A stretch of 34,497 nt of DNA, taken from the NCBI GenBank assembly GCA_031296165.1, contig JARLGF010000110.1, forward strand, positions 1 to 34,497, written 5' to 3'. Origin of the DNA: Occallatibacter sp. (GTDB lineage Bacteria; Acidobacteriota; Terriglobia; Terriglobales; Acidobacteriaceae). Positions 1,559 through 31,412 of this stretch are shown here, one piece after another; the first letter of the stretch is position 1, and each line of letters opens with the position of its first letter. The notes beneath the pieces were generated by a model. That model made no database searches and had not been told where the DNA came from. It was given only the letters and a program-made list of their open reading frames with translations. The translations under genes and the position numbers were made by a program.

Positions 1559-1927
1559 TCAGGGCTTCGGACTCAACTGGGGATGGAACTCCGCTTTGCC
1601 TCCGGGAAGCAGCACAATTTCCAGCCGTCCCTCTTGCCGCTCGGCCACGGTGGGCCCGTCTATCTCTACCTGATGGCCGTCGCTGGCCGTGAACTGTACC
1701 TTCAGTGGACCGCTGCCGCGCAACTGAATCCGGTAGTGAAACTCGGCGTTTGCGGACAGGCTGCCCGCACCGAAGCTGGCGCTCGGATAGTCCACTTCCA
1801 GCAGTTGAATTGTCCCGCCAGTGTGGTTCTCCACCGTGGTTTCCACGTGATAGGAATGGCACCCGGCAAGCGCCAGCAGCGCCGGCAATACCAGAATGCC
1901 TCCGCATAGGACGCTTCGACCTGTCAT
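1559..1927 (-). CDS. Small putative lipoprotein
   Basis: 122 aa with signal peptide and lipobox-like LLALAGC. 4-bp overlap with the upstream lpxD stop. Confidence 0.65.
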   Translation of the reverse strand: MTGRSVLCGGILVLPALLALAGCHSYHVETTVENHTGGTIQLLEVDYPSASFGAGSLSANAEFHYRIQLRGSGPLKVQFTASDGHQVEIDGPTVAERQEGRLEIVLLPGGKAEFHPQLSPKP

Positions 1928-3000
1928 TCCCGGCTCTCTTTTCCGTCCGTCGCGCCTTCCGCGGCTTCTCGCGCAGCAACTTTCTTCTCCATGCGGTCCA
2001 GCCGCTTGAGCAGTTCCGGCAGCCGCTGAAAGATCGTGACGGCACGCAGCCAGACGCGGTTGTCGAAGCCCGGCGAGCCGGAGATCACCTTGCCCGCCGG
2101 CACATCGTGCGACACAGCCGATTGCGCCGTCAGAATCACGCCGTCGCCGATCGAGCAGTGACCGGCAATGCCCACCTGGCCGGCCAGAATCACGTTATTG
2201 CCCACCATCGAAGAGCCGGCAAGACCGGTTTGTGAGCACAGCAACGTATTTTCGCCTACATGCGAACCATGGCCAACCTGGACCAGGTTGTCGACCTTCG
2301 TTCCGTCGCCGATCTGGGTTGCGCCCACCGTGGCGCGGTCGATGGTTGCGTTGGCCTGCACATCCACGCGGTTGCCCAGCCGTACCGGTCCCGATTGCGG
2401 GATCTTCTCCCAGTGCCCGGCTTCGTTTTTCGCGAACCCGAAGCCATCCGCTCCAATGATGACGCCATTCTCCAGCGTCACATGGTCGCCCAGGATGCAG
2501 TTTTCCCTGACCACCGCATGGGCATGAGCAAAGAAGTGCTCGCCCGCCTGCACTCCGGGGTAGAGAACCACATGCGGAAGCAGCGTCGCGTGCGCGCCCA
2601 GCCGCACCCCGGGTCCCACCACAACATACGCGCCGATGTGCGCTCCTGCGCCGATCTCGGCTGTGGCGTCAATAACCGCCGTGGGGTGAATGCCGGGTGC
2701 GTACGCCGGAGGCTGGTAGAAAAGGCCCAGCGAGCGGGAAAACGCCAGGTAGGGATTCTTGATCCGCAGCGTTGCAGTAGCAATTTCCTGAAATTCAGGC
2801 TCGACCAGCACGGCGGCAGCCCGCGTTGTGCGCGCCAATCCGGCATAGCGGGGATTGGCCACAAAGGTCACCTCCGTGGGTCCGGCTTCCTCAATTCCTT
2901 TAACGCCTGTAACTTCCAGATCCGCGTTGCCGCGCAACTCCGCGCCCAACCGGCTTGCCAACTCGCCTAACTTCATGGATGAAATTGTACTGGAATGCAT
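1924..3000 (-). CDS. lpxD: UDP-3-O-acylglucosamine N-acyltransferase
   Basis: Left-handed beta-helix hexapeptide repeats; ...ATIDRATVGATQIGDGTKVDNLVQVGHGSHVGENTLLCSQTGLAGSSMVGNNVILAGQVGIAGH... typical of LpxD. Confidence 0.95.
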   Translation of the reverse strand: MHSSTISSMKLGELASRLGAELRGNADLEVTGVKGIEEAGPTEVTFVANPRYAGLARTTRAAAVLVEPEFQEIATATLRIKNPYLAFSRSLGLFYQPPAYAPGIHPTAVIDATAEIGAGAHIGAYVVVGPGVRLGAHATLLPHVVLYPGVQAGEHFFAHAHAVVRENCILGDHVTLENGVIIGADGFGFAKNEAGHWEKIPQSGPVRLGNRVDVQANATIDRATVGATQIGDGTKVDNLVQVGHGSHVGENTLLCSQTGLAGSSMVGNNVILAGQVGIAGHCSIGDGVILTAQSAVSHDVPAGKVISGSPGFDNRVWLRAVTIFQRLPELLKRLDRMEKKVAAREAAEGATDGKESRE

Positions 3001-3054: not shown

Positions 3055-4563
3055 TCAGGGTTGAGGCTGCGGCTCGACAGCGATGCCCGGCGTGGCTGCC
3101 TGTGGTGGCGGCGCCTGCAGCGTATGCGCCCCGGACTCGGCTGCGCGCAGCACCTCGCCGGGCACAATGCCCAGCACCAGCGTGGCCGCAACCGCCAACA
3201 GCAAAGCCGCGCCCACCGCAACCCCAACTTGCGGCGCGGGTGCTTCGTTCTTCCTGTCGGCATTCCGCTGCACCGAGGTGAGAACCAGCCGCAGATAGTA
3301 GCCAGCCGCCAGGCCCGAGTTCAGCAGGCCAATGATAGCCAGCCAGATTGCCCCGCCACTCACGGCTGCCGAGAAGGAATAAAACTTGCCGAAGAATCCG
3401 CCCGTGAATGGAATTCCGACCAGCGAAACCAGGAAGAAAATCAGCAGGCTGCCCAGCAGGGGTGAGCGGTAAATGAGCCCACGGTAATCCTCGACCAGCG
3501 GCAGTTGCTCGTCGTAGCCGCTGACCAGCGTGATGACGGCGAAGATGCCCACGTTCATGGCCGCGTAAGCGGCTGTATAGAAACTGGCGGCGGCAATCCC
3601 GCTGTTGCCCAGCCCGGCAAAAGCAGCCAGTAGGTAGCCGGCATGAGCAATTGAAGAGTAGGCCAACATCCGCTTCACGTTTTGCTGGCGCAGCGCGGCC
3701 AGGTTGCCCACGGTCATGGAGAGCACGGCCACAATCCACAGCAGCGGCGACCAGAGCGAGTGCAGCGAGGGGAACATCTCGTACACCACACGCAGCAGCA
3801 GCGCGAAGGCCGCGGCTTTGGGCGCGGTAGAGAGCAGCGCCACCACCGGCGAGGGCGCGCCTTCGTACACATCGGGCGTCCAGACGTGGAAGGGAGCGGC
3901 AGAGACCTTGAAGAGAATGCCCACCAGCATCAGCGCCAGGCCGGCCAGCACGAACAGATGATTCGGCGCCGACGGCACCAGGTAGGAGATCTCGTAAATC
4001 TGCGTGGTTCCGGTAGCGCCAAAGATCAGCGCAATGCCGTAAAGCAGGAATCCTGTGGCAAAGGAGCCCAGGAGGAAGTACTTGATCGCCGCCTCGGGAC
4101 CACGGCCTGTGTCCTTGCGGTAGCCAGCCAGAATGTAAGTGGAGATGGAGGAGATTTCCAGGGCGATGAAGACCAGCAGCAGTTCGACCGCGCCGGTAAG
4201 CAGGCACATGCCCACCGCGCCGAAGACGATCAGGGCGTAGAACTCGCCCTGGTGATGGCTGTCCTCGGGCAATGTATCCAGCGAGAGCAGCAGCGCCACC
4301 AGCACGATGCCGCAGATGAGCACGTGGAAAAAGACGGTAAAGGGGCTGGTCTCAACGGTTGAGTAGAAGCCGGTTCCAACCGGCAGAGAGAGCTGCCAAA
4401 GGCTGGCCCACAGAGCCAGCGTGGTTCCAATCGCGGCCACCCAGCCGAGGGAACGGCGCGGCCATGCGGCCGGCAGCGTCGCGTCAATCAGCATGACGGC
4501 GACACCGGTGAGGGTGAGAACCAGCTCGGGAAGGATGCGGAAAATATCGGGAACAGGATTCAC
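3055..4563 (-). CDS. nuoN: NADH-quinone oxidoreductase subunit N
   Basis: Multi-TM protein; ...[33 protein letters not shown]... and [18 protein letters not shown] typical of NuoN. Confidence 0.95.
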
Positions 4564-6104
4564 CGCTGGCCCTCCCCTGGGGACGGAATCGAGAACGACG
4601 GTAACAGCAGAACGGATGGTGGCAACACAGCCGATACCTTAGCCTGCGGAGGGTGTACGCCCGTCTGGATCGAGGGGAGCCAGAGCGACGGCGTCACGCC
4701 CAACGCCAGCATCAGCACGGCCAGGGGCGCCAGGATGGCCAACTCGCCAAAGCGTATGTCCTTTGCGGGCTTTGACGCGGCCAGTGCGCTCTCCGGCCCG
4801 TAGAACAGGTGTTGCACCAGGCTCAGCATGTAGACCGCGCCCAGAATTACACCCAGCGAGGCGGCAATCGCCCAGCCGCGGCTGACGCCTATGAATGTGC
4901 TGGAGAAGATGAGGAACTCGCCCACAAAGCCGCTGAGGAAGGGCAGGCCGATCATGGCCAGCGAGGCGAGGACGAAGAGCGTAGCCGCGCGCGGCAGCTT
5001 GCCGGCCAGGCCGCCGTAATCGCCAATCTGGCTGCTGGCGTAGCGATCGTAGAGGAAACCAAGCAGCAGGAACAGTGCTCCATCCACAACGCCGTGGCTG
5101 AGAATCTGGAAGACCGCGCCGCTCATGCCCGTAAGCGTGAAGCCGTAGATGCCTAACACGATCAGGCTCAAATGACTCAGGGCTGCAAAAGCCAGTAGCC
5201 GCCAGAAGTCGCGCTGCACCAGCGCCAGGCACGCGCCGTAGAGAACTCCGATGACGGCCAACGCAATCAGAAGCGGAGCCAACGCCAGGGCTTGTTGTGG
5301 GAACAGGCCGATATGGAAGCGCAGCATGGAATACAGGCCCAGCTTGCCGGCCACCACCATGGCCAGGGCCACGGGCGCTTCACTGAAAGTGTCGGCAAGC
5401 CAGCCGTGCAGCGGGAAGATCGGAACCTTCACGGCAAAGGCAAAGAGAAACGCAAGCGCGATCCAGCAAAGCGGACCGGCGGGGAAGTTCCCGTGGGCAA
5501 TCAGAATCTGTAGCGTGACAAAGTCGAAGCTGCCGGTACGCGCATAGAGCCAAAGGATCGCCACCAGCAGCGGCGCGGAAGGAATGAACGTGAACAGAAA
5601 AAATTTAAGAGCGGCCTTGGGTCCATCCTTGCGGCCGTACATGGCGATCAGCACGGCCATGGGCACCAGCGACAGTTCCCAGAAGCCGTAGTACAACATC
5701 AAATCCAGTGAGAGGAAGACGCCGAACATGGCCGTCTGCTGGACTAAGAAAAGCGCGTAGAAGACCTTGCGCCGTTCCGTAATGGCGTTCCAGCTTGCCA
5801 CTACGCCAACCGGCGCCAGCAGCCCGGTCAGGACCACCAGCCAGAGGCTCAGTCCGTCCACGCCGAGGTGGTAAAAAATCGCCGGATTTTCAATCCACGG
5901 CATGTTGATCTCAAACTGGAAGCCACCCTGATTCAGAACAAAGTGCGCCGGCAGATGAAGCGTAAGGCCGAAGGTGACAAGCGCCGTGATGAGGGCAATC
6001 CAGTTGGGCAGCTTGCGGCGGTCGGGGACCAGGGCCACCAGCACCGCTCCGGCCAGCGGGAGCAGCAGGATCAGCGTGAGAATCGATTGGTTTATCGCGT
6101 TCAT
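4560..6104 (-). CDS. nuoM: NADH-quinone oxidoreductase subunit M
   Basis: ...[23 protein letters not shown]..., [28 protein letters not shown]; 4-bp overlap with nuoN. Confidence 0.96.
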
Positions 6105-6107
6105 TCT

Positions 6108-8048
6108 CTAGTGCCCCGCCATGGTGAGGTGAATTCCGAAACCGGCCAGAACTGTGGCCCAGGGAACAACGACAAAAAGCAGCAGTGCCGCGGCGCCCGC
6201 GGCCAGCCACGCCGCATACGAGCGCAGATTGCCCGACTGCCAGCGTTGCAGAATCGCTCCCGCATACGTTGCCGTGCCGCCCAGCAGCCATGCCGTTCCG
6301 CCCAGCAGAGCCTTGTCCACAACCCAGTCCAGCAGGTAATGGGAAACGGCAAACAGCGGCTTGACGACCGATGCGCCGTAGAACTCGTCGACGTAGTATT
6401 TGTGGGCGAGCAGGCTGTAGCTGCCGGGAAGAGCCTCGGCCAGCTCCGCCGCACGCGCGGGTTTTTGCCGGTAAACCAGGTCTGCTATAAACCAGCCAAG
6501 CAGGGCTACAACTACGGCGGCAATGCTCAGGATCAGTTCAAGCTGCGCGCTGCCGGCCGTGGACCTTGTGCCGACAGACGGAGCCAGAAAAGCGCCAAAA
6601 CGCTCGCTGCCAATCCAGCCGCCGCAGATCGAGAGCAGCGCCAGAATCACCAGCGGCACGGCCATTGACCAGGGATTGGCGTGGGGATGGTCCACTTCGC
6701 CGCGCGGCTTGCCCAGGAAGGCCATGTACCACAGGCGAAACATATAGAACGAGGTCAGCAGTGCGGTAAGCAAGCCGACAAACCACAACACCAGGCCGCT
6801 GCCGCCCTGCACAAAAGCTGCGTAGAGAATCGCGTCCTTTGAGAAGAATCCGGCAAGGGGAAAGAAGCCCGCAATCGCCAGTACGCCTACCGTGGTCATA
6901 GCAAAAGTAACCGGCATCTTCTTCCACAGGCCGCCCATCTTGCGCAGGTCCTGCTCTCCGCCTAGCGAGTGAATCACCGCGCCGGCGGCAAGAAAGAGCA
7001 GTGCCTTGAAGAAGGCGTGAGTCATCAGGTGGAAGATAGCCGCTGAATAAGCCGCAACGCCGCAGCCCAGAAACATGTAACCCAGTTGCGAGATGGTGGA
7101 GTAGGCCAGCACCCGCTTGATGTCGTTCTGCACCAGGCCGATGGTGGCTGCGAACAGCGCCGTTGCTGCGCCGATCACCGCAACCACGCCGAGCGCGAAC
7201 GGCGAGTGGTCGAACAGCACATGCGTCCGGGCAATCATGTACACGCCGGCCGTGACCATGGTGGCGGCATGTATGAGTGCGGAGACCGGCGTGGGGCCTT
7301 CCATCGCGTCGGGCAGCCAGATATAGAGCGGGAGCTGCGCGCTCTTGCCGGTTGCGCCGAGTAACAGGCAGAGTGCGATGACGGTAAGAATGCCGCCCTG
7401 CCAGCCGGGGTCTTGGCCGAGCTTGGCGCCAATCTCGCTGAAGGTCAGCGTGCCGAAGTTGGCCAGCAGCAGAAACATGCCGATCAGAAAGCCCAGGTCG
7501 CCGATGCGATTGACGATGAAGGCCTTTTTGCCTGCGTTTGCCGCCGAGTCTTTATGGAAATAGAACCCGATCAGCAGGTACGACGCCAGACCCACGCCTT
7601 CCCAGCCTACGAACATCAGCAGGGCATTGCCGGCCAGCACCAGCAGGGTCATGAAAAACAGGAATAGGTTCAGGAAGCTGAAGTACCGCGCGTATCCCTC
7701 TTCGTCGCTCATGTAACCCACGGAGTAGACGTGAATCAGGAGGCCGACGCCGGTGACCACCAGCAGCATCACCAGGGAAAGCTGGTCCAGAACCAGGCTG
7801 AAGTCGATGTGCAGCGTGCCGGCGTTGATCCAGGGCGACGGGCAGGTTTCAACGTAGGGCAGGGAACCGATACCGGTTTGAAAGAAGCCCTGCGCGGCGC
7901 TGAGCACTACGCCGAATGCGGCCAGAGGCGCCAGCAGCGCAATCGTGGTTACCAGCCACTTGGGCAACCGGGAGCCGAGGATTCCGTTCAGCAGAAACCC
8001 TGCAAAGGGCAACAGCGGAATCAGCCAGAGATGGAGTGATCCGTTCAT
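6108..8048 (-). CDS. nuoL: NADH-quinone oxidoreductase subunit L
   Basis: Start taken at [18 protein letters not shown] (8048) because the upstream extension to 8192 overlaps nuoK out of frame; ...[32 protein letters not shown]. Confidence 0.96.
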
Positions 8049-8368
8049 AGTTTCATCAGGTCGATACGGTCGACGGCCAGGGTAGCGCGAGCGCGGAAGA
8101 CAGCAATAATGATGGCCAGTCCCACGGCAGCTTCCGCCGCGGCCACCGTCATCACAAAGAAAACAAAAATCTGACCTTTCACCGCATGCCATTGGTGGGC
8201 GAAGGTCACAAAGGAAAGATTGACGCCGTTGAGCATCAGCTCAATCGACATGAAGACGGTGATCAGGTTGCGCTTGATGAGAAATCCGACAACGCCGAGC
8301 GAAAACAGCGCCGCACTCAGCAGCAGATACCAGGAGAGAGGGACTTCCTGCGAAAAAATGGAGTTCAC
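8045..8368 (-). CDS. nuoK: NADH-quinone oxidoreductase subunit K
   Basis: 107 aa; ...[36 protein letters not shown]...; 4-bp overlap with nuoL. Confidence 0.96.
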
Positions 8369-8910
8369 TTGCCCGTCCTTTCCCGGTTTCCCTGAGGCTC
8401 TCCGCTGCCGTGGCGGGCCAGGGCAACAGCGCCCAGAATCGCGATGAGAATCAGTATGGAAGTGACCTCAAAGGGCAGCAGCAGTTGGGTGAACAGCACC
8501 GAACTCAGCTCTTCGATATTGGTTTTGCCGCTGGCGTCGGTGAGGCCTTCGCCCAGCGTCGCCACGCCCAGCCCTTGCGCCTTCAGAATCACGGTGGCGA
8601 TAACAGCCAGAATTGCTACGACCGCGGGAAATCCCACCGCGCGCGCCGAACGGCTGCCCATAGTGCGCTCTTCGCGCCCGGCGTTGAGCAGCATCACTAC
8701 AAAGGTGAACAGCACCATGATGGCGCCGGCGTAGACAATGACCTGTGCAATGGCCAGAAACTCCGCACCCAGCAGAAGATAAAGCACGGCCAGCGAGGTC
8801 ATCACCACGATCAGCGACAGGGCGCTGGTGATGGGATGGCTCTGGAGCAGGAGATTGATGGCTCCAGCCAGGCAGAATCCGGCAAACAGAAAAAACAGAA
8901 TCAGGTGCAT
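8365..8910 (-). CDS. nuoJ: NADH-quinone oxidoreductase subunit J
   Basis: ...[52 protein letters not shown]; start likely MHLILFFLF (8910), ORF open to 8943. Confidence 0.95.
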
Positions 8911-9017
8911 CGTTCCCTGACGTTCAGGCTTGAACCGGCGCAAATAAACCGGCTGGTTAAGGAGAAGGACTCACGAGCAAACTGCTCAGGCTCCGTGGAA
9001 TCCATCCCGATTGTAAA

Positions 9018-10064
9018 TCAGTGGTACGCAAGCCAAAGGCTTGTACCCAGAATGTTCAGCATGGCCAGCGGCATTAAGTAGCGCCATCCAAAGTTCATCA
9101 GCTGGTCATAGCGGAAGCGCGGCAGCGTGCCCCGCACCCAGACATACAAAAACAGGAAGCAAAAGACCTTGGCCACAAACCAGAAGATGGGGAAAAACGC
9201 GTGAACCAGGATGTTCTGTGGCGGAGGCATCAGGTCGCCCATCGGGCTGGTCCAGCCGCCCAGAAACATCAGCGTGGCCACGCAACCCACGGTGATCATG
9301 TTGCCATACTCGGCCATGAAGAACATGGCGAACTTCATTGAGCTGTATTCGGTGTGGTAGCCGCCGGTCAGTTCGCTCTCTGCCTCGGGCAGATCGAAGG
9401 GGGAGCGGTTGGTCTCGGCAAACGCGGCCATCAGGTAAATGAAGAAGGCTACAAACTGCAATCCGCCGAAGATGTTCCAGGTGACAATCCCTTTCTCGGC
9501 CTGTTTCTCCACGATCACGCGCAGGTTGAGCGAGCCGGTCTGCAGTACAACGCCCACCAGAGAAAGTCCCAGCGCCAGCTCGTAGCTAATCAACTGCGCC
9601 GAAGAACGAAGCGAACCCAGCAACGAGTATTTGTTGTTCGACGACCATCCGGCTAGCGCAATGCCGTAGACCCCGATCGAAGTGACGCCCAGAATCACCA
9701 GAAGCCCGATGTTGATGTCGGAGATCTGAAAGAAATGAATGCCGCCGGGCCCCACGTTGGGCTCGCCGAAGGGCACCACGGCGATGGATATCAGCGCGCA
9801 ACCCAGCGCCAGAATCGGCGCCAGCAGGTACAGCGGCCGATACACGCCGGTAGGAATAATGTCTTCCTTGAGGAAGGACTTTGCTCCATCCACCAGCGGC
9901 TGCAGCAGTCCGAACGGTCCCACGCGGCTGGGTCCCCAGCGGTTCTGGATGCGGCCCACGAGTTTGCGCTCCAGCAGCACGGTATAGGCGATGCCGAGCA
10001 GCATCACCACCGTCACCACGGCCACCTTGAGCAAGCTCCAAAGAAAAAATACGAGAATCGTCAC
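9018..10064 (-). CDS. nuoH: NADH-quinone oxidoreductase subunit H
   Basis: ...ERKLVGRIQNRWGPSRVGPFGLLQPLVDGAKSFLKEDIIP..., AETNRSPFDLPEAESELTGGYHTEYSSMKFAMFF. Confidence 0.97.
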   Translation of the reverse strand: MTILVFFLWSLLKVAVVTVVMLLGIAYTVLLERKLVGRIQNRWGPSRVGPFGLLQPLVDGAKSFLKEDIIPTGVYRPLYLLAPILALGCALISIAVVPFGEPNVGPGGIHFFQISDINIGLLVILGVTSIGVYGIALAGWSSNNKYSLLGSLRSSAQLISYELALGLSLVGVVLQTGSLNLRVIVEKQAEKGIVTWNIFGGLQFVAFFIYLMAAFAETNRSPFDLPEAESELTGGYHTEYSSMKFAMFFMAEYGNMITVGCVATLMFLGGWTSPMGDLMPPPQNILVHAFFPIFWFVAKVFCFLFLYVWVRGTLPRFRYDQLMNFGWRYLMPLAMLNILGTSLWLAYH

Positions 10065-10101
10065 GTGCCTTCAGCCTCTTCTTCCAACCAATAACAACAA
10101 A

Positions 10102-12432
10102 TCAATCCGCCGCCGATTCCGCCGATTCGTGTTTCTGGTGCTGTTCCAGTTCCTTGAGCGCCGGGCTGAACCGGCCCAGCGTTGCCGATGTAAACAGTCC
10201 ATCGTGCGCGGGAACCACTACATCCTGTGCGCTCAATGCCGCGCCAGTCAAAGCCGTGACCGAAACAAAACCCGGCTCCGTAGGCACCGCGTTGCCGCCC
10301 AGCAGGTTCACCCGGTCCAGAGCATAGCCGGGAACCAGCCGGGCAATTTCGTCCAGCACGGCCAACGGATCGAAGGGGCTCAGCTTCGGCTCCAGATTAT
10401 TTGCTGCCAGCCACACCGCATGGCGGTCTGCCTCGCCGGCCTGCGCGCCGCGCGACTGGCCCAGGTCGGCAGTGACGCCGCCCTTGCCAAACGGCACCAG
10501 CGCTTTCACGTCCACACCCATGCCGCCGGCCAGGCGCACCAGAATCTCAAAGTCCGGCTTCACGCCCGCGCGATCTGCCGCCTTCTTCGCCAGTTGCACA
10601 TCGCCATACGTATTGGTTACCGTGCCGGTTTTCTCGTAGAGACTCGCCGCTGGCAACACCACATCGGCCAGGGCCGCGGTCTCGGTGAGGAAGATGTCCT
10701 GCACAATAACGAATGTGTTCTTCAGCGCCGCCGCGTCCACGCCCAGCGCGGCCACGGGATTCGCGCCCATCACCAGCAGCGCGCCCAGTTCGCCCTTGCC
10801 TGCCGCGGCGAACATCTCCGGCATCGACCTTCCTGCCGTTGCGGGCAGGCCCGGACATTCGGCTGCAAAAGCGCCAGGCTCGCTTACCGGCACGTAGCCC
10901 GGCAGCAGGTCCGGCAACACTCCCATATCGGCAGCGCCGCGCGCATTGGCGTGGTCGCCCAGCAAGGCGAAGCGCACATTGCCGCGCTTCAGTCCCCAGG
11001 CCACAAGCGATTCCACTGCCTGGCCGCGATATTCCTGGCCAAAGATCACCACCAGCGATTCCTCGGCCAGCACCGCCTTGCTGAAATCGGAGTTGCTCGT
11101 TTCCAGATAAGCGGCCAGCGAAGCATAGCCATCCTTCGGCAAAAGCACCGCGGCCTTGGCCTGCCGTTCCAGCTTGATGGCCTGCGTATTCGCAATATAA
11201 AGCCGGGCGCGATTCAGCCGCACATTGGTGCGCAGCGTCCATGCCAGCAGCGGATGTTCCTCGGTTGGATTGCCGCCCACCAGCAGGATTGCCTGCGCCG
11301 ATGCAATCTCGTTCAGGCCGGCCGTCTTGTCCTTGTGTCCGGCCAGGGCGCGTGCAAAGGCCGCGTAGTCGGTGCTGCGCGCGTGGTCGATGTTGTTGGT
11401 CTGGAGCACGGTCCGCGCAAACTTCTGCAGCAGGTAATTCTCTTCGTTGGTGGTCTGGTTGGAGCCGACAACGCCGATCGCCGCGCCGCCTTTGCTGTCG
11501 CGCACTTCTTTCAGTTTGTTCGCGGCAGTGCGCAGCGCATGTTCCCACGTAGCCGGTTCCAGCTTGCCCTCGGCGTTGCGCACCAGAGGCGTGTTTAGCC
11601 GCTCCGGACTCTCCACAAAGTCGAAGCCGAAGCGGCCCTTGGCGCAGAGAAAGTCGCCGTTGATGCCGCTCTTGTCGCGGTTGTCCGCGCGCACAATCTC
11701 CGATCCGTCGTTCGCTTGCCGCACGCCCAGCGTCACCTTGCAGCCGTCGGCGCAATGCGTGCACACCGTCGACACGTGGTTCATCTCCCACGGCCTGGTC
11801 TTGTAGGGATAGCTGCCGCTGGTCAGCGCGCCCACCGGGCACACATCGATGCACATGCCGCACTGTTCGCAGTCCAGTTGGTCGCCGCCATTAGGCGCAA
11901 TCACAGAGCTGACGCCGCGGTTCTGCACCCCCAGCGCCCACACGTCCATGCCCTCGCCGCACATGCGGATGCAGCGGTAACACAGGATGCAGCGCGGCCG
12001 GTCATAGTAGACGGCCGGCGACCACTGCTGTTCGTCGCGGTGCTGTTTGGCCTCGGCGTACAGGCTTTCGCCTGCGCCGTACTTGAAGGTCATGTCCTGT
12101 AGTTCGCACTCGCCGCCGGCGTCGCACACCGGGCAGTCCAGCGGATGGTTGCCCAGCAGCAGTTCTATCGTCGCCTTGCGCGCCTGCGCAATCTCCGCGG
12201 ACTCGGTGATGAAGACCTGGCCCTCGGCAACCGTGGTGGTGCAGGCCGTCTGCAGCTTGCCCACTTTTTCCTGGCGCACCACGCACATGCGGCAGGCTGC
12301 CTGCAGGCTGAGCCCGGGGTAGTAACAGAATGCTGGAATCTCGATGCCCGCCTTGCGGCAGGCGTCAATCAAGAGCGTTCCCGCGGGAGCCGTGAGCAGT
12401 TTTCCATCGACTGTGATCGTTACGTCTGCCAT
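10102..12432 (-). CDS. nuoG: NADH-quinone oxidoreductase subunit G
   Basis: 2Fe-2S N-terminus (CYYPGLSLQAACRMCVV), CPVCDAGGECELQD, CILCYRCIRMC, CEQCGMCIDVCPVGAL and molybdopterin oxidoreductase-like C-terminus. Start MADVTITVD at 12432. Confidence 0.95.
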   Translation of the reverse strand: MADVTITVDGKLLTAPAGTLLIDACRKAGIEIPAFCYYPGLSLQAACRMCVVRQEKVGKLQTACTTTVAEGQVFITESAEIAQARKATIELLLGNHPLDCPVCDAGGECELQDMTFKYGAGESLYAEAKQHRDEQQWSPAVYYDRPRCILCYRCIRMCGEGMDVWALGVQNRGVSSVIAPNGGDQLDCEQCGMCIDVCPVGALTSGSYPYKTRPWEMNHVSTVCTHCADGCKVTLGVRQANDGSEIVRADNRDKSGINGDFLCAKGRFGFDFVESPERLNTPLVRNAEGKLEPATWEHALRTAANKLKEVRDSKGGAAIGVVGSNQTTNEENYLLQKFARTVLQTNNIDHARSTDYAAFARALAGHKDKTAGLNEIASAQAILLVGGNPTEEHPLLAWTLRTNVRLNRARLYIANTQAIKLERQAKAAVLLPKDGYASLAAYLETSNSDFSKAVLAEESLVVIFGQEYRGQAVESLVAWGLKRGNVRFALLGDHANARGAADMGVLPDLLPGYVPVSEPGAFAAECPGLPATAGRSMPEMFAAAGKGELGALLVMGANPVAALGVDAAALKNTFVIVQDIFLTETAALADVVLPAASLYEKTGTVTNTYGDVQLAKKAADRAGVKPDFEILVRLAGGMGVDVKALVPFGKGGVTADLGQSRGAQAGEADRHAVWLAANNLEPKLSPFDPLAVLDEIARLVPGYALDRVNLLGGNAVPTEPGFVSVTALTGAALSAQDVVVPAHDGLFTSATLGRFSPALKELEQHQKHESAESAAD

Positions 12433-12440
12433 TCGTTTCC

Positions 12441-12749
12441 TTATGCGGCCTGTGTCGATTCTGTGAATGGAAGAGACTGAGGAAGCGACACTGGAAGCCA
12501 CTCCACGAAATACTGTTTTGTCTCGTGGTCAGGGTCGAACTCTTCGAAATTGACGTTCTTTGCCGCTGCATCCGGAATGGGTTCTCCGGCTTTCGCGGTT
12601 TCTACCATGTAGAGTTCCAACGCTTCGCGCATATTTGCGCGCGTATCTTCCAGCGCATCGCCAAGCGAGCCGCATCCGGGAATGTCTGGAGAAAATGCGC
12701 TCCAGTTATTTGCACTTTTTTCGTAAACCACCAGATATTCTCGCGTCAT
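12441..12749 (-). CDS. hicB: HicB-like antitoxin
   Basis: MTREYLVVYEKSANNWSAFSPDIPGCGSLGDALEDTRANMREALELYME-type HicB fold; 4-bp overlap with the HicA ORF. Confidence 0.85.
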   Translation of the reverse strand: MTREYLVVYEKSANNWSAFSPDIPGCGSLGDALEDTRANMREALELYMVETAKAGEPIPDAAAKNVNFEEFDPDHETKQYFVEWLPVSLPQSLPFTESTQAA

Positions 12750-12931
12750 TTCAGCCCTGCCTTCTTGAGGATGCTGTGAAGCAGCCCCTTCCCGATTTCC
12801 TTTCCGGCGTGCATCGGCACAATCAACAATCCAGGTTTTACAGGATGACGGAAATGCCGGTGACTTCCCGTCTGTCCCGTGCTGTACCAGCCGTCGTCTT
12901 CAAGCACGTGTACAAGCTCTTGCGGTTTCAC
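12746..12931 (-). CDS. hicA: HicA-like mRNA interferase toxin
   Basis: 61 aa, LVHVLEDDGWYSTGQTGSHRHFRHPVKPGLLIVPMHAGKEIGKGLLHSILKKAGL; the GSH catalytic histidine and dsRBD-like HicA pattern are present. Confidence 0.88.
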   Translation of the reverse strand: MKPQELVHVLEDDGWYSTGQTGSHRHFRHPVKPGLLIVPMHAGKEIGKGLLHSILKKAGLK

Positions 12932-13015
12932 TGTTCCATCTCAAATCACTTGCCGTTCCCATTCCCCGGCATAACGATATTCCGAATCTCATACAAGGTG
13001 CGCAAGGTACTGCCG

Positions 13016-14326
13016 TTATACCACTGCTAAATCCACATGTTTGGCAAACGGGCAGGGCTTGCCGTTCAAATGGTCCTCAAACTCCTTGCGGAACTTCTTC
13101 ACAAAGCCCAGCGTGGGCATGGCGGCTGCGTCGCCCAGCGGGCAAAAAGTGCGCCCCATCATGTTCTCAGCTAGGTATTGAATGTTGTCGATGTCCTTGG
13201 CCTCGCCAAATCCTGCGTGGAAGCGGGTCAGCGACTTCTTCAGCCAGTCCGTTCCTTCGCGGCAGGGAATGCACCAGCCGCAGCTCTCGTGCTGATAAAA
13301 GCTGATGGTCCGCAGCGCAAACTCCACAATGCAGGTCTGGTCGTCCAGCACCACCACGCCGCCCGAGCCCAGCATCGACCCGGCCTTGCCCACCTGGTCG
13401 AAGTCCATGCCGAGATTTTCAATCTCTTCAGGCAGAAATACCGGTGTCGAGGAGCCACCGGGGACCACGGCCTTCAGCGCTCGTCCGCCGCGGACGCCGC
13501 CGCCCACTTCGTAAATCATCTTCTTCAGGTTGTAGCCCATGGGCAGCTCATACACGCCGGGCCGCTCCACGTGGCCGCTCAGACCGAACAACCGCGTGCC
13601 GCCGTTGCGTGGCGAACCAACCGCCGCGTAAGCTTCTGCGCCCATCTCGATCACGTGCGGAACCGTGGCGATGGTCTCGGCGTTATTGATGACCGTGGGA
13701 CCGCCGTAGAGGCCGACAACAGCAGGGAACGGCGGCTTGATGCGTGGCACGCCCCGCTTGCCTTCCAGTGACTCCATCAGCGCCGACTCTTCGCCCACTT
13801 CATAGGCGCCCGCGCCGGTCTGGACAATCACCTGAAACTCGGCATCCGAACCGAAGATGTTCTTGCCCAGAAAGCCTTTTGCGTAGGCATCGGCAACGGC
13901 CTTCTCCATAATTTCGATCAGATACCGGTACTCGCCGCGCAGGTAGATGAAGCCCAGTTTGGAGCCAATCGCCAGGCCGGCGATGATCGTCCCTTCAATC
14001 ACTGCATGAGGGTCATGCAAAAAGATCAGGTGATCCTTGCAGGTTCCCGGTTCGCTCTCGTCGCCATTCACCAGCACGTATTTGGGTTTGGCTGAGGTCT
14101 TGGGTACAAACGACCACTTGAGTCCCGTGGGAAAACCCGCGCCGCCACGCCCGCGCAGGTTGCTGGCCTTCATCTCGTTGATGACCCATTCCGGGCCTTG
14201 CGCCAGGCACTTCTTTGCGGACTCATAGCCGCCAAGTTCGAGATAGCGATCGATCTTTGCCGCGCCTTTTCCAAAGCGGCTGGTGACGATCTTGACCTCA
14301 TCGGGATGGGAGACCAGCCTAGGCAT
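13016..14326 (-). CDS. nuoF: NADH-quinone oxidoreductase subunit F
   Basis: ...LRGRGGAGFPTGLKWSFV..., NGDESEPGTCKD, ESCGWCIPCREGTDWL; start MPRLVSHPDEVK at 14326, overlapping nuoE. Confidence 0.96.
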   Translation of the reverse strand: MPRLVSHPDEVKIVTSRFGKGAAKIDRYLELGGYESAKKCLAQGPEWVINEMKASNLRGRGGAGFPTGLKWSFVPKTSAKPKYVLVNGDESEPGTCKDHLIFLHDPHAVIEGTIIAGLAIGSKLGFIYLRGEYRYLIEIMEKAVADAYAKGFLGKNIFGSDAEFQVIVQTGAGAYEVGEESALMESLEGKRGVPRIKPPFPAVVGLYGGPTVINNAETIATVPHVIEMGAEAYAAVGSPRNGGTRLFGLSGHVERPGVYELPMGYNLKKMIYEVGGGVRGGRALKAVVPGGSSTPVFLPEEIENLGMDFDQVGKAGSMLGSGGVVVLDDQTCIVEFALRTISFYQHESCGWCIPCREGTDWLKKSLTRFHAGFGEAKDIDNIQYLAENMMGRTFCPLGDAAAMPTLGFVKKFRKEFEDHLNGKPCPFAKHVDLAVV

Positions 14327-14855
14327 GTGTGGCCGTCCCTTCCGACTTCGTTTTGCTGCGATAACTGGCCAGAATGCCATTGACCAGCTCGGGCTTGAGC
14401 TCGTCGTGGAAGTCGTAGTTCACCTGGATGGCCGGCGCCCAGCAGCAGGCCCCGATGCACTCCACTTCTTCAAGCGAAAACAGGCCGTCGGGTGTGGTGC
14501 CTTTGGGCCCGATGCCCAGCTCCTCCTGGAAACGCTCGTAGATGTCGTACGCTCCGCGCAGCATACAACTTATGTTGGTACAGACCTGCACGTTGTACTT
14601 GCCCACCGGCTTGAAGCGCAGCATCGAGTAGTACGTCGCCACATTGCGTACATCCAGCTCGGTGATGCCGATGCGCTCGGCCACTTCCGCAATCACCGCA
14701 TCGGAGAGATAGCCGATCTCGTCCTGCGCATAGAGCAGCATGGGAACCAGCGCCGAGCGGCGCAAAGGATACTTCAGCACCAGCGCGTCGAAGCGCGCCG
14801 CCAGCCTGGGCGAAAACAAGGTCATGGTCTCCGTACTCGTCTCCTTGGGACTCAT
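14319..14855 (-). CDS. nuoE: NADH-quinone oxidoreductase subunit E
   Basis: ...VQVCTNISCMLRGAYDIYE...EVECIGACCWAPAIQVN (2Fe-2S thioredoxin-like). Start MSPKETSTETM at 14855 overlaps the upstream ORF stop. Confidence 0.93.
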   Translation of the reverse strand: MSPKETSTETMTLFSPRLAARFDALVLKYPLRRSALVPMLLYAQDEIGYLSDAVIAEVAERIGITELDVRNVATYYSMLRFKPVGKYNVQVCTNISCMLRGAYDIYERFQEELGIGPKGTTPDGLFSLEEVECIGACCWAPAIQVNYDFHDELKPELVNGILASYRSKTKSEGTATHA

Positions 14856-15187
14856 CGCGGCAACTCCGTCATCTTCATCAGGTCCCGCGCCCACGCTTCG
14901 GCTGCCATATCCATCTCTTCCTCGCCCGAGTCACTCCGCAATCGTCCGGTCTCCGTCAACTCCAGCACTCCGCTCCGTCCATCCCCGCACTGCCAGTTCA
15001 CCTTCGCGCCCGTGCGTCGCAAATCCAGCCAGCTCTCGCCACAGCGGGCCAGAATCCTGTCTTCGCCCAACTCCACCGCCGCCTGCCGGTTGCCGCTCAG
15101 CCCGTGCAGCGCTGTATAGCTGCGCAGCAGGGAAGCCAGCGAGATCCAAAGTTCATCAAATACACAATCCAGCGATGGACGCTTCAA
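14852..15187 (-). CDS. Uncharacterised 111-aa protein encoded inside the nuo operon
   Basis: TTG-start ORF between nuoD and nuoE, 4-bp overlap with the nuoE start; no family recognised by eye. Confidence 0.65.
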   Translation of the reverse strand: MKRPSLDCVFDELWISLASLLRSYTALHGLSGNRQAAVELGEDRILARCGESWLDLRRTGAKVNWQCGDGRSGVLELTETGRLRSDSGEEEMDMAAEAWARDLMKMTELPR

Positions 15188-15190
15188 TCT

Positions 15191-15246
15191 TCCCTCAGTC
15201 CCTAAGTCCCTCAGTCTCTAAGTCCCTCAGTCTCTAAGTCCCTAAG
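15191..15246. repeat. Octamer tandem repeat (7 x 8 bp)
   Basis: + strand: tccctcag tccctaag tccctcag tctctaag tccctcag tctctaag tccctaag. Confidence 0.95.
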
Positions 15247-15254
15247 TCTGGTCC

Positions 15255-16469
15255 CTACCTATCAATTTCCCCCAACACAATATCGATGGACCCGATCACC
15301 GCAACCACATCGGCCAGCATGCGCCCCTTGCACATGGTTTCCAGCGCCTGCAGCGTCGCAAACGAGGGATAGCGCATATGCACCCGGTAGGGCTTGGCGG
15401 TGCCGTCCGATACCACGTAGTAGCCCGTCGGACCGTGGCCCGATTCCACGCCCTGATACACTTCGCCAGCCGGCACCGCAAACCCCTCGGTGACGATCTT
15501 GAAGTGATGAATCAGCGCCTCCATCTGGGTCTTCATCTTTTCCCGGTCGGGCAGCACAATCTTCGGCGCGTCGGCTTTTACCGGTCCCTCCGGCATACCG
15601 TCCAGCGCCTGCTGGATAATCTTGATGCTCTCGCGCATCTCGTCCAGGCGAACCAGATAACGCGCCCAGCAATCGCCCTCTGTCAGCACCGGCACTTTGA
15701 ACTGAAACTTCTCATAGCTGGAGTAAGGAATATCGCGGCGCAGGTCGAAGTCCACGCCCGAAGCGCGCAGCGGCGGTCCGCTTACGCCCAGCGCAATCGC
15801 GTCCGCCGCCGAGATAGTACCCACCCCCTGCAGCCGGTTCTTGAAGATCGGATTGCCGGTCAGCAGGTTTGCATACTCGTCGATCTTTTCCGGAAGGATG
15901 CCGATGAAGCTCTGCACCCGGTCAAAGAAGTCCAGTGGCGGTTCCATTGAGACGCCGCCGATGCGGAAGTAGCTGGTCATCATCCGCTGCCCGGCCACAG
16001 CCTCAAACAGCCGCAGAATGTCTTCCCGCTCGCGGAAGGTATAGAGAAAAACCGTGAGCGCGCCAATGTCCATGGCGTGCGTGCCCAGCCAGATCAGATG
16101 CGAATTCAGGCGGCTCAACTCGGCCAGAACCACCCGTATCCACTGCGCTTTCCCGGGAATCTCCAGCGCCAGCAGCTTTTCCACGGCCAGGCAATAGCAC
16201 AGGTTGTTCGACAGCGGATCGAGGTAGTTGATCCGGTCGGTCAGCGGCACCACCTGCTGGTAAAACTTGGCCTCGCAGGTCTTTTCAATGCCCGTGTGCA
16301 GATAGCCGATCTCCGGGTAGAGCCGCACCACGATCTCCCCGTCGATCTCCACCACCAGGCGCAGCACGCCGTGGGTCGCCGGGTGCTGCGGACCCATATT
16401 GATGACCATGTGCTGGTCTTTGGCGCCTTCTGCCGGTTCGAGGACAGGCATTCCCGCGGGATTGCTCAT
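15255..16469 (-). CDS. nuoD: NADH-quinone oxidoreductase subunit D
   Basis: ...MVINMGPQHPATHGVLRLVVEIDGEIV..., GYLHTGIEK; C-terminus DVVAVIGSIDIVLGEIDR. Confidence 0.97.
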   Translation of the reverse strand: MSNPAGMPVLEPAEGAKDQHMVINMGPQHPATHGVLRLVVEIDGEIVVRLYPEIGYLHTGIEKTCEAKFYQQVVPLTDRINYLDPLSNNLCYCLAVEKLLALEIPGKAQWIRVVLAELSRLNSHLIWLGTHAMDIGALTVFLYTFREREDILRLFEAVAGQRMMTSYFRIGGVSMEPPLDFFDRVQSFIGILPEKIDEYANLLTGNPIFKNRLQGVGTISAADAIALGVSGPPLRASGVDFDLRRDIPYSSYEKFQFKVPVLTEGDCWARYLVRLDEMRESIKIIQQALDGMPEGPVKADAPKIVLPDREKMKTQMEALIHHFKIVTEGFAVPAGEVYQGVESGHGPTGYYVVSDGTAKPYRVHMRYPSFATLQALETMCKGRMLADVVAVIGSIDIVLGEIDR

Positions 16470-28580: not shown

Positions 28581-29093
28581 CTACGCCTTGTCCGGATCAC
28601 GGGGAAAGAGGTCCGGTTGCTCGATTGCCTTGTGTGAAGTATCGGACCGCTTGCGGCCTGCGGCGCCAATCAAGCTAACCACCTCCAGCGACCGGATGGA
28701 CTGCCGGGGCACATAAATCCTCTGTGTATTCGACCGCGCATCCGGTGGGGTGAGCAGAAGCCCGGCGCCTTCCACCAGCGACAGGTCATTCACTGCCAGA
28801 CCTTCGAGTTCTTCCCCATCGGTGAGTGTCATCCGCATCCACAGTCCTGCAGTGCGGGGCCGGATGGAAAAACGCTTATGCAGGAGCCGCTCGGGATTTG
28901 CCGTTTCGCCGGCAGGGAAGTCGCGCACATAGCAAACCCACTTCACCTGATCCCAGGCGATGCGCATTACTTTTCCGGTGAGGTCCAGAATCTCCAGTTC
29001 CGTCGCATCGTGGCCGAAACTGGTGCCTGCGTAGCCGGCGTACCAGTCGCGGGAGAACTTGCGTACGATCACCGGTTTGCGAACGGAAGCCAT
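28581..29093 (-). CDS. Hypothetical protein
   Basis: Start at MASVRKPVIVRKFSRDWYAGY (29093), ORF open to 29198; convergent with the 27331-28572 gene, 8-bp gap. Confidence 0.7.
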   Translation of the reverse strand: MASVRKPVIVRKFSRDWYAGYAGTSFGHDATELEILDLTGKVMRIAWDQVKWVCYVRDFPAGETANPERLLHKRFSIRPRTAGLWMRMTLTDGEELEGLAVNDLSLVEGAGLLLTPPDARSNTQRIYVPRQSIRSLEVVSLIGAAGRKRSDTSHKAIEQPDLFPRDPDKA

Positions 29094-29324
29094 CGCTCTG
29101 GATTGTCGCACGAACCGGGGCCTCCACGGATGGGGCTTGGTCCGTGGTGGGGTGCCGGGGGAGAGCCGCGAACGGAAATAGCGGCATATGTGGTGCATCT
29201 AACCCTAGCCAACCGGGCCGAGTTGTGTTAATGTACTGGTTTGCCAGCTCTGCCGGTTTGTGCTGTAAGGGTAACAACATCAGGTACTTGGCAGAGACAT
29301 GAGACGGCGGAAGCAGGGAACGGA

Positions 29325-31412
29325 ATGCCCGACTACATCTATCTCTTGGATAACCGGCTGTCGACCGACCAGCAGCACGCTTTACGCCAGATGCGCGAAG
29401 CTGCCCGTGAAGCTGGCCTGATCCTCTTTCTAACCGGAGATGCGATCCGCGATCTGACCAGTGGCCACGCTGTGCGAGGCCTCGAAGTATCAGTTCACGG
29501 AAATGCGCTTAAGCTCAAGAAAACAATCGAGAAATTAGGCGGAAAGATCTGGGGAGAAAGTGAGGCTTTACGCAGCCTCTACGTGTGTTTTCCCGGAACC
29601 GTTCGTGTGGATGTCATCAGTACACTTCGCGTCGAATATCCCAAGCCGGGCAAGCCTGTATATCATCCGGCCTCTATCCAGGAAGACCTGCGCCGCCGCG
29701 ATTTTACCGTCAATGCGATGGCTATTTCGCTCAACGAGGGATCGTTCGGGCTGTTAATGGACCCCTTGAATGGGGCAGCGGATATTGAGACCCGGACACT
29801 TCGTCTGGTCTCAAATTATGGCTTTCTTGAGGAGCCCTCGCTGCTGATTCGTGCCACGCGGTACCTAGCGCGGCTGGAATGGGAACTTGATCCCAAGACC
29901 AGGACCCGGTACGAGAACGCAAAGAACGAGGGAGTGATTGAATATCTGTCCGCCGAGGCGCGCAGCCAGGAACTCGAGCAGATTGGCCACGAGGATGAGG
30001 GCCTGAAAGTATTGAGGGCGTTGGAAGACGAGGGCTGGATGAAGGTCCTCTTCCCGGCATGGACTTCTGCCAAGGCCGACGAAGAGAAGTTGAAGGCCCT
30101 GCATGATCTGGCGGTCGAGCTGCTGTTGCAGGGGGTCCATGCCGATATGTCCGCGGCGCAGATTCAGTTGCTGACTGCCAAGCTGGCCCCCAAGGATCTG
30201 GCGTCGCTAAAGAAGCTGATGCTGCGTCCGGGTTTCGTCGAGGAATGGAGCAACCTGGATTTACTGGCGGCAGGGTTTGCGAAGGTGCTGTTGGCTAAAG
30301 GGAATGCTACGCCCTCGGCCAGCTATAAGCTTTTTACAAGCTATGATCCAGAAGCGATTCTGTGGCTTGGATTTACAAGCAAGGACCCGGCTGTTCAGGA
30401 GCGTTTTAACCAGTTCCTCAAGGTTTGGCCCGAAGCCCGTCAGCGCATCCCTCATGCCCTGATGCAGGAGATGCGTATTACTCCTGAACTGGCGACCTAT
30501 AACGAGATTGTGCAGGCTGTTTTCCTGGAGTTGATTGACGGTAGGTTGACTACCCCGGAAGAGATTCGTGCTTATCTTGAACCGCATTCACCGCCCGCTC
30601 CGCCGCCGAAAGAGATCATCAAGAGGCCGCGCGCCAAGAGAGGCGCCGACGCCAAACTCAAGGAGCAATCGTACGAAGACGATGAAGACTCCGGAGACGG
30701 TTCGGATGTGGACGAGGATCTGGACGATATCGGCGGCGATGAAGATGAAATTGATCTTGGTCTGAGCATACCTAAGGCCGATCTGGATTCCGATATGGCG
30801 GAAGAAAACGAATCCGCTGAAGATGAACTTGACGACGCAGAGCATGCGCAGGTTACCGCTGCCGTGAAGCCTGCAGTTAGGAAGTCTGCCAAACCTGAGG
30901 TCGCAAAGAAGTCACAGTCTCCCGTTTTGACGTCAACTCCCAAGACGGTTGAAAAGACGGTCGCCAAGCCTACTGCCGAAAAGCCTGAGAAGACTAAAAA
31001 AACTCAGCTTTTGTCCCCGCCAAAACCGGGATTAAAGCCATTATCGAAACCCGTGCCGGTAGCGAAGTCCACAGCGGGGGGCGTGAAGCCTCATGCGTCT
31101 TCTGCCAAGGCAAAGCACGTGCTCGTTGCTGTTCCAGCCAAGGCCAAAGCGACTCCCGCAGTGAAGAAGTCCGCGCCTGTCGCAGGCGTAGTTAAGGGAA
31201 GCAAATCTTCCAAGCCGATTGCCGTTAAATTTGCTGCCAGCGGGAAACCGGTAGTCAGGGTTCCAGTCAAGGCACCTGCTAAGGCTCCGACCAAGCCTCC
31301 GGTCAAGACGATTGCAAAAGCCGCACCAGCCAAATCGCAACAAGCAAAGGGCAAGCCTGTTCACGCTGCGAGTTCCAAGGTAAAGCCGTCCAAGCCTGCC
31401 AGGAAGCGCTAG
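29325..31412 (+). CDS. tRNA nucleotidyltransferase/poly(A) polymerase-like protein with acidic and Lys/Ala/Pro-rich C-terminal tail
   Basis: Head-domain features (AIRDLTSGHAVRGLEVSVHG, EDLRRRDFTVNAMAISL, LLMDPLNGAADIETRTLRLV) followed by about 250 aa of low complexity. Start MPDYIYLLDN at 29325, ORF open to 29241. Confidence 0.82.
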   Translation: MPDYIYLLDNRLSTDQQHALRQMREAAREAGLILFLTGDAIRDLTSGHAVRGLEVSVHGNALKLKKTIEKLGGKIWGESEALRSLYVCFPGTVRVDVISTLRVEYPKPGKPVYHPASIQEDLRRRDFTVNAMAISLNEGSFGLLMDPLNGAADIETRTLRLVSNYGFLEEPSLLIRATRYLARLEWELDPKTRTRYENAKNEGVIEYLSAEARSQELEQIGHEDEGLKVLRALEDEGWMKVLFPAWTSAKADEEKLKALHDLAVELLLQGVHADMSAAQIQLLTAKLAPKDLASLKKLMLRPGFVEEWSNLDLLAAGFAKVLLAKGNATPSASYKLFTSYDPEAILWLGFTSKDPAVQERFNQFLKVWPEARQRIPHALMQEMRITPELATYNEIVQAVFLELIDGRLTTPEEIRAYLEPHSPPAPPPKEIIKRPRAKRGADAKLKEQSYEDDEDSGDGSDVDEDLDDIGGDEDEIDLGLSIPKADLDSDMAEENESAEDELDDAEHAQVTAAVKPAVRKSAKPEVAKKSQSPVLTSTPKTVEKTVAKPTAEKPEKTKKTQLLSPPKPGLKPLSKPVPVAKSTAGGVKPHASSAKAKHVLVAVPAKAKATPAVKKSAPVAGVVKGSKSSKPIAVKFAASGKPVVRVPVKAPAKAPTKPPVKTIAKAAPAKSQQAKGKPVHAASSKVKPSKPARKR

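Follow-up and report, generated by a model that had tools for sequence, protein, structure and literature searches.

The window, by which we mean the whole analysed stretch of 34,497 nucleotides from Occallatibacter sp., probably encodes a repurposed, catalytically impaired paralogue of the class II tRNA nucleotidyltransferases that acts by binding nucleic acid. The parts of this statement differ in strength: loss of catalysis in this copy can be proposed with good confidence from its motifs, and addition of CCA would be very unlikely; nucleic-acid binding through the body domain, conserved arginines and tail is proposed with less confidence, and the bound ligand and the cellular role are a guess. 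The paralogue is a variant of a known superfamily and not a new kind of fold, and a search of the open-access literature found no description of a bacterial CCA-adding enzyme with a conserved, degenerate paralogue. An earlier sequence-only reading had suggested a pseudo-nucleotidyltransferase or an enzyme of altered chemistry, possibly binding RNA. It gains from a canonical cca gene elsewhere in the genome, further losses of motifs, a constrained fold and a polybasic tail, but has to be qualified in that Gly52 is private to this genome, related genera keep the GG and DxD motifs, and we infer both inactivity and RNA binding.

The open reading frame spans positions 29,241 to 31,412 of the forward strand and comprises 723 amino acids from a TTG start. 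Since the paralogue family is conserved from the methionine encoded by the ATG at 29,325 (MPDYIYLLDNRLS), the start was set there, giving a protein of 695 amino acids from whose first methionine all residues are numbered. M1, D3, Y4 and Q16 are nearly invariant in the family; an alignment of 50 sequences yields the N-terminal consensus MxDYIYLLExRLSxxQQ with M1, D3 and Q16 invariant, and an AGGGA sequence lies a few bases 5′ of the ATG. The extent first proposed, 29,325–30,600, thus had the start conserved in the family but ended too early, cutting off a tail of 273 amino acids. The features are collected in Table 1. Searches for RNA families and tRNAs found none in the window; an ordinary complex I (nuo) gene cluster occupies positions 3,055–16,469 on the reverse strand. 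A defence system was discarded as a reading, PADLOC having given no match.

Table 1. Features of the degenerate paralogue and its neighbour, in window positions
Feature	Position	Strand	Details
Divergent DUF6982 (PF22478) gene, conserved neighbour	28581..29093	-	ORF opens at 29198
Degenerate tRNA-nucleotidyltransferase paralogue, CDS	29325..31412	+	695 aa plus stop; ORF list and family-conserved start
Head-neck-body core, residues 1-422	29325..30590	+	Pfam PF01743, AF2 pLDDT 95, Foldseek
Motif A glycines, GG to G38-D39	29436..29441	+	codons GGA GAT
Metal-binding DxD, to G52-L53-E54	29478..29486	+	codons GGC CTC GAA; alignments
Asp96, candidate third carboxylate, kept in this copy	29610..29612	+	Asn in four congeners
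B/A motif (Arg-x-Glu), to L101-R-V103	29625..29633	+	canonical R 110/110, E/D 110/110 non-gap rows
Motif B RRDFTVNAMA, intact	29694..29723	+	
Motif D amino-acid (base) template EDxxR, to E169-E-P-S-L173	29829..29843	+	
Motif-E Arg, to Ala212	29958..29960	+	Arg 113/113 canonical, 0/37 paralogues
Predicted disordered tail: acidic stretch, then Lys/Ala/Pro-rich H1-like part ending ARKR	30591..31409	+	composition

Assignment of the core to the class II superfamily is supported at the level of both profile and predicted structure. The head is the only part recognized by Pfam (PolyA_pol, 49.5 bits against a cut-off of 23), and the Aquifex aeolicus enzymes match at about 1e-27 in a phmmer search of the PDB. 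A model of the core predicted by AF2 from an alignment of 50 orthologues led, in Foldseek, to 46 first PDB matches that are all class II CCA- or A-adding enzymes, related tRNA-processing nucleotidyltransferases or poly(A) polymerase. The alignments span nearly the whole core (best E 4.7e-19), with a TM score of about 0.5 and a large rmsd, a combination that reads as domains placed differently in the model. The PolyA_pol head is thus found together with the class II head-neck-body fold (matches to 3h38, 5hc9 and 4wc2), which is shared over the whole core length with the class II CCA- and A-adding enzymes of Thermotoga maritima (3h37/5hc9) and A. aeolicus (1vfg/4wc2), as are RRDFTVNAMA, the DPxNGxxDIE/motif C region and the phosphate-side arginines. 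In contrast to these enzymes, the paralogue has changed GG, DxD, B/A, template and motif-E arginine, carries an H1-like tail, and falls below the NCBIfam cut-offs. NF041569 (A-adding) gives 104.6 of 1440 bits, missing its cut-off, and is matched only at model positions 453–738, so that the N-terminal extra domains of this 880-position model lie outside the match; TIGR02692 gives 70.5 bits against a cut-off of 438.8.

The case for impaired catalysis rests on the active-site motifs, which were compared with 113 canonical CCA- and A-adding rows, among them cca genes from relatives of the window genome and A-adding enzymes of other Acidobacteriota. The second glycine of motif A, the second aspartate of DxD and the template arginine are each present in 113 of 113 rows, and the first aspartate is Asp in 111 and Glu in 2. 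In an alignment to the T. maritima CCA enzyme 3h37 (phmmer, E 1.7e-29), L-D-I-D-I-V lies over R-G-L-E-V-S and GG over GD. A misaligned DxD was rejected because G-L-E falls at this site in phmmer, in a MAFFT alignment with 33 canonical sequences and in a further alignment of 150. The sequence-only reading was accordingly right on three points: the Gly-Gly is altered, DxD aligns with G-L-E, and the later RRDFTVNAMA is intact. We take R212 to be motif E and the column of R101 and E103 to be the B/A motif, which is our own reading of the superfamily. Among the motifs by which a class II CCA enzyme is recognized, motif B (RRDFTxNAMA) is present, whereas GG/DxD, EDxxR and the B/A motif are not; motif C and several phosphate-side arginines are also retained. 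In canonical enzymes the B/A motif positions the tRNA 3′ end (PMC7014341). An Escherichia coli CCA enzyme with both aspartates replaced by alanine (AxA) is inactive, and replacements of the template aspartate and arginine were not recovered in selection (PMC11784652). Because metal ligands, template, 3′-end positioning and motif-E arginine are all changed in this copy, and because the AxA mutants are inactive (PMC11784652), this copy would be expected not to add CCA.

A canonical cca gene, whose presence elsewhere in the genome had been named as a check, was indeed found on contig 81 (locus L001, G000:C81), beside tsaD; the paralogue is therefore not the organism's sole CCA enzyme. The window genome is a draft of 65% completeness. 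L001 encodes 521 amino acids with AGGCVRD, DYD, the loop SDGRHPDAV, RRDFTING, EDxxR and an HD domain. While the PolyA_pol head is common to both proteins, the degenerate paralogue differs from L001 in its motifs, in lacking the HD domain, in bearing a tail and in belonging to a separate clade. Two homologues were found in 30 of 30 other genomes of the family in a phylum-wide sample. With the PF01743 PolyA_pol profile, both genes were recovered in every congener that is at least 94% complete; among less complete congener drafts, five have one match only and one has none. One Terriglobia genome (G051), estimated to be 100% complete, gave no PolyA_pol match at all, so that its tRNA CCA enzyme either has diverged strongly, belongs to another class or is absent from the assembly.

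One pointer to binding is the part of the protein that follows residue 422. Most paralogues continue there into a Lys/Ala/Pro-rich tail, usually ending in KKR or similar. Its length ranges from tens of residues in the deeper lineages to as many as about 350 in Acidobacteriaceae; in the window genus it follows an acidic stretch. Little or no tail is present in a few deep members, and contig ends truncate some frames. A long, disordered Lys/Ala/Pro-rich (KPAA) C-terminus of this kind is also known from AlgP and PhaF, whose H1-like tails bind DNA and associate with polyphosphate (PMC9239181); unlike the paralogue, these are granule and nucleoid proteins with N-terminal domains that are not nucleotidyltransferases. 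By this mechanism, the core would still dock tRNA-like or otherwise structured RNA via the body domain and conserved arginines, the basic tail would add affinity for RNA or DNA that is not sequence-specific, and the protein would bind, and so protect, sequester or position nucleic acid, instead of adding nucleotides. The analogy also counts against the binding reading, since the ligands of the AlgP and PhaF tails are DNA and polyphosphate and not tRNA.

That the paralogue must do something useful follows from its being held more tightly by selection than the real enzyme in the window genus. Median dN/dS in the same 25 genomes is 0.085 for the paralogue core and 0.129 for canonical cca, values that are rough because synonymous sites are near saturation (dS >1). 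Free of that limitation is the comparison of mean identities in the 25 genomes with both genes, 77.2% for paralogue cores and 74.9% for cca. Of 300 pairs, which are not independent of one another, 230 show higher identity for the paralogue than for cca. Purifying selection acts more strongly on its fold than on cca in the same genomes, and the two marks of a pseudoenzyme, lost catalytic residues and a fold under purifying selection, thus occur together, the loss of both DxD aspartates being a feature of this genome.

Variation inside the genus both refines this picture and provides the main rival to it. Every one of the 34 genus sequences carries G39D and D54E, and Leu occupies position 173 in 94% of the genus. 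Position 52, by contrast, carries Asp in 16 sequences and Glu in another 16, with Gly confined to this genome and Ala to one other, and is thus acidic in 32 of 34. On the genus tree it has changed about ten times, and because only two of these changes abolish the acidity, a negative charge is favoured there; one row (L134), lying one residue out of register in the comparison, was excluded from these conclusions. The claim that both carboxylates are replaced therefore holds for this genome (G52, E54) but not as a family trait, since Gly52 is private to it; lying one base from Asp, Gly52 taken alone may reflect either a change peculiar to this genome or a fault in the assembly. Sequencing error or a pseudogene was discarded for the gene as a whole, given that GD, E54 and L173 are common to congeners and the frame is intact. 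According to the main rival, which appears unlikely, the site has been remodelled and the genus may bind metal and transfer or hydrolyse nucleotides on some RNA with relaxed base choice. Consistent with this, G39D and D54E are shared by the same lineages, the window genus plus L035 and L036, which fits remodelling of the site no less than its loss. Aspartate and glutamate interchange at position 52, D96 is mostly kept, the NTP-side residues R42, R125, N130, R176 and R179 are fully conserved within the genus, and purifying selection exceeds that on cca. Asp39, Glu54 and Asp96 could form an unusual metal site; the possibility that carboxylates are restored at other positions, which the sequence-only reading had held against itself, thus receives a divided answer, in that the original DxD pair is changed, but Asp39 is new alongside D54E and Asp96 is kept here. 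Against altered chemistry stand Gly at position 52 here and Ala in another congener, Asn at position 96 in four congeners, the template arginine replaced by leucine, and loss of the B/A motif and of the motif-E arginine. Moreover, the Asp/Glu exchange at position 52 is nearly absent from canonical enzymes.

The history of the family points to gradual impairment. Sequences more than 40% identical to the paralogue occur in Acidobacteriota only, and full-length orthologues are found throughout Terriglobia, with the frame intact and without internal stops in dozens of genomes; the paralogue has passed vertically down the class alongside canonical cca. In a quick tree computed without the motif columns, the 37 paralogues come out as a single clade (support 100, branch 0.76), which groups with a set of CCA- and A-adding enzymes from other Acidobacteriota and other phyla, apart from the cca of the same genomes. 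The minimum numbers of changes on the tree are seven for D52, two for D54, six each for E96 and R101, seven for E103, three for the template R173 and one for R212, and the motif-E arginine is the sole residue lost throughout the paralogues. GD and [D/E]-x-E characterize the window genus, whereas other genera of the family mostly keep GG and DLD while many have lost the B/A motif; several retain GG, DLD, E96 and EDPxR. In a second family of the order, D52 is lost and RRDFTVNAMA has become RRGFTLDAIG or similar (L113, L117, L122, L126, L130). Because related genera keep GG and DxD, catalytic residues appear to have been lost lineage by lineage and not in a common, already dead ancestor. Residual chemistry may thus persist in relatives, and the family may retain an activity that the window genus alters rather than loses. 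The flexible loop is also shortened in some paralogues of the second family, which with its altered motif B marks a different route of degeneration. The genera have reached different points, with a complete metal site, D/ExE, G-x-E or T-x-D, and so form a natural series in which to ask at what stage and by what steps a polymerase can give up catalysis while retaining its fold and, perhaps, recognition of RNA. Annotation pipelines are prone to label such paralogues as CCA enzymes.

The complete metal site and EDPxR of related genera, together with the polybasic tail, also lend something to a second alternative, which we regard as improbable: the whole paralogue family would tail RNA in the manner of a poly(A) polymerase, with the tail giving affinity, and the window genus would be a decayed branch. 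Poly(A) polymerase I (PcnB; 3aqk–3aqn) shares superfamily and fold with the paralogue. However, its signature [LIV][LIV]G[RK][RK]Fx[LIV]h[HQL][LIV] (PMC8208693) has no match in the window protein or in any paralogue scanned, which removes poly(A) polymerase I itself as an identity. The pcnB model gives 40.7 bits against a cut-off of 305.65, and the motif-E arginine is lost in 37 of 37 paralogues tested.

Regulating an enzyme partner is the role of many pseudoenzymes. Still less probable, nonetheless, is a regulatory subunit that would form a heteromer with the canonical CCA enzyme, or another RNA enzyme, and regulate it: canonical cca co-occurs in almost all genomes, and S135, S140, L143, P147 and N149 are conserved specifically in paralogues and generally not in canonical enzymes, but co-occurrence weighs little where cca is needed anyway, and the paralogue is not linked to cca in the genome. 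A functionless, decaying duplicate would account for the repeated loss of catalytic residues, but is highly improbable given the dN/dS, the intact frame and the class-wide vertical retention.

The preferred reading, a repurposed paralogue acting by nucleic-acid binding, can be extended, tentatively, to a class-wide fold turned architectural or RNA-protecting by its H1-like tail, its active site eroding independently in several lineages, possibly working together with the tandem-barrel DUF6982 protein encoded divergently beside it. The model of DUF6982 (AF2, pLDDT 84) consists of two small five-stranded SH3/Sm-like barrels. Its matches to the tandem Tudor domains of 53BP1 (E 3e-3, weak) and to cyanobacterial Hfq (1.7 Å over 48 columns, E 0.08) are not significant, and a partnership with the paralogue or a nucleoid role for the latter is speculative. 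A divergent DUF6982 gene lies less than 1 kb from the paralogue in 30 of 34 other congeners and in 28 of 28 sampled genomes from other genera of the family. Co-occurrence was nevertheless not accepted as proof of partnership: DUF6982 occurs in many Acidobacteriota genomes without the paralogue (it is absent from 14 control genomes), and the adjacency seems to be partly inherited order, because deeper genomes carry both genes inside a longer one. There, with gene names read off translated sequences, the order is lpxD-DUF6982-(murJ)-xerD-paralogue-dnaE-accA (L113–L131, L222–L225). The window genus keeps only DUF6982 beside the paralogue, and lpxD lies about 26 kb away, at positions 1,927–3,000 of the window.
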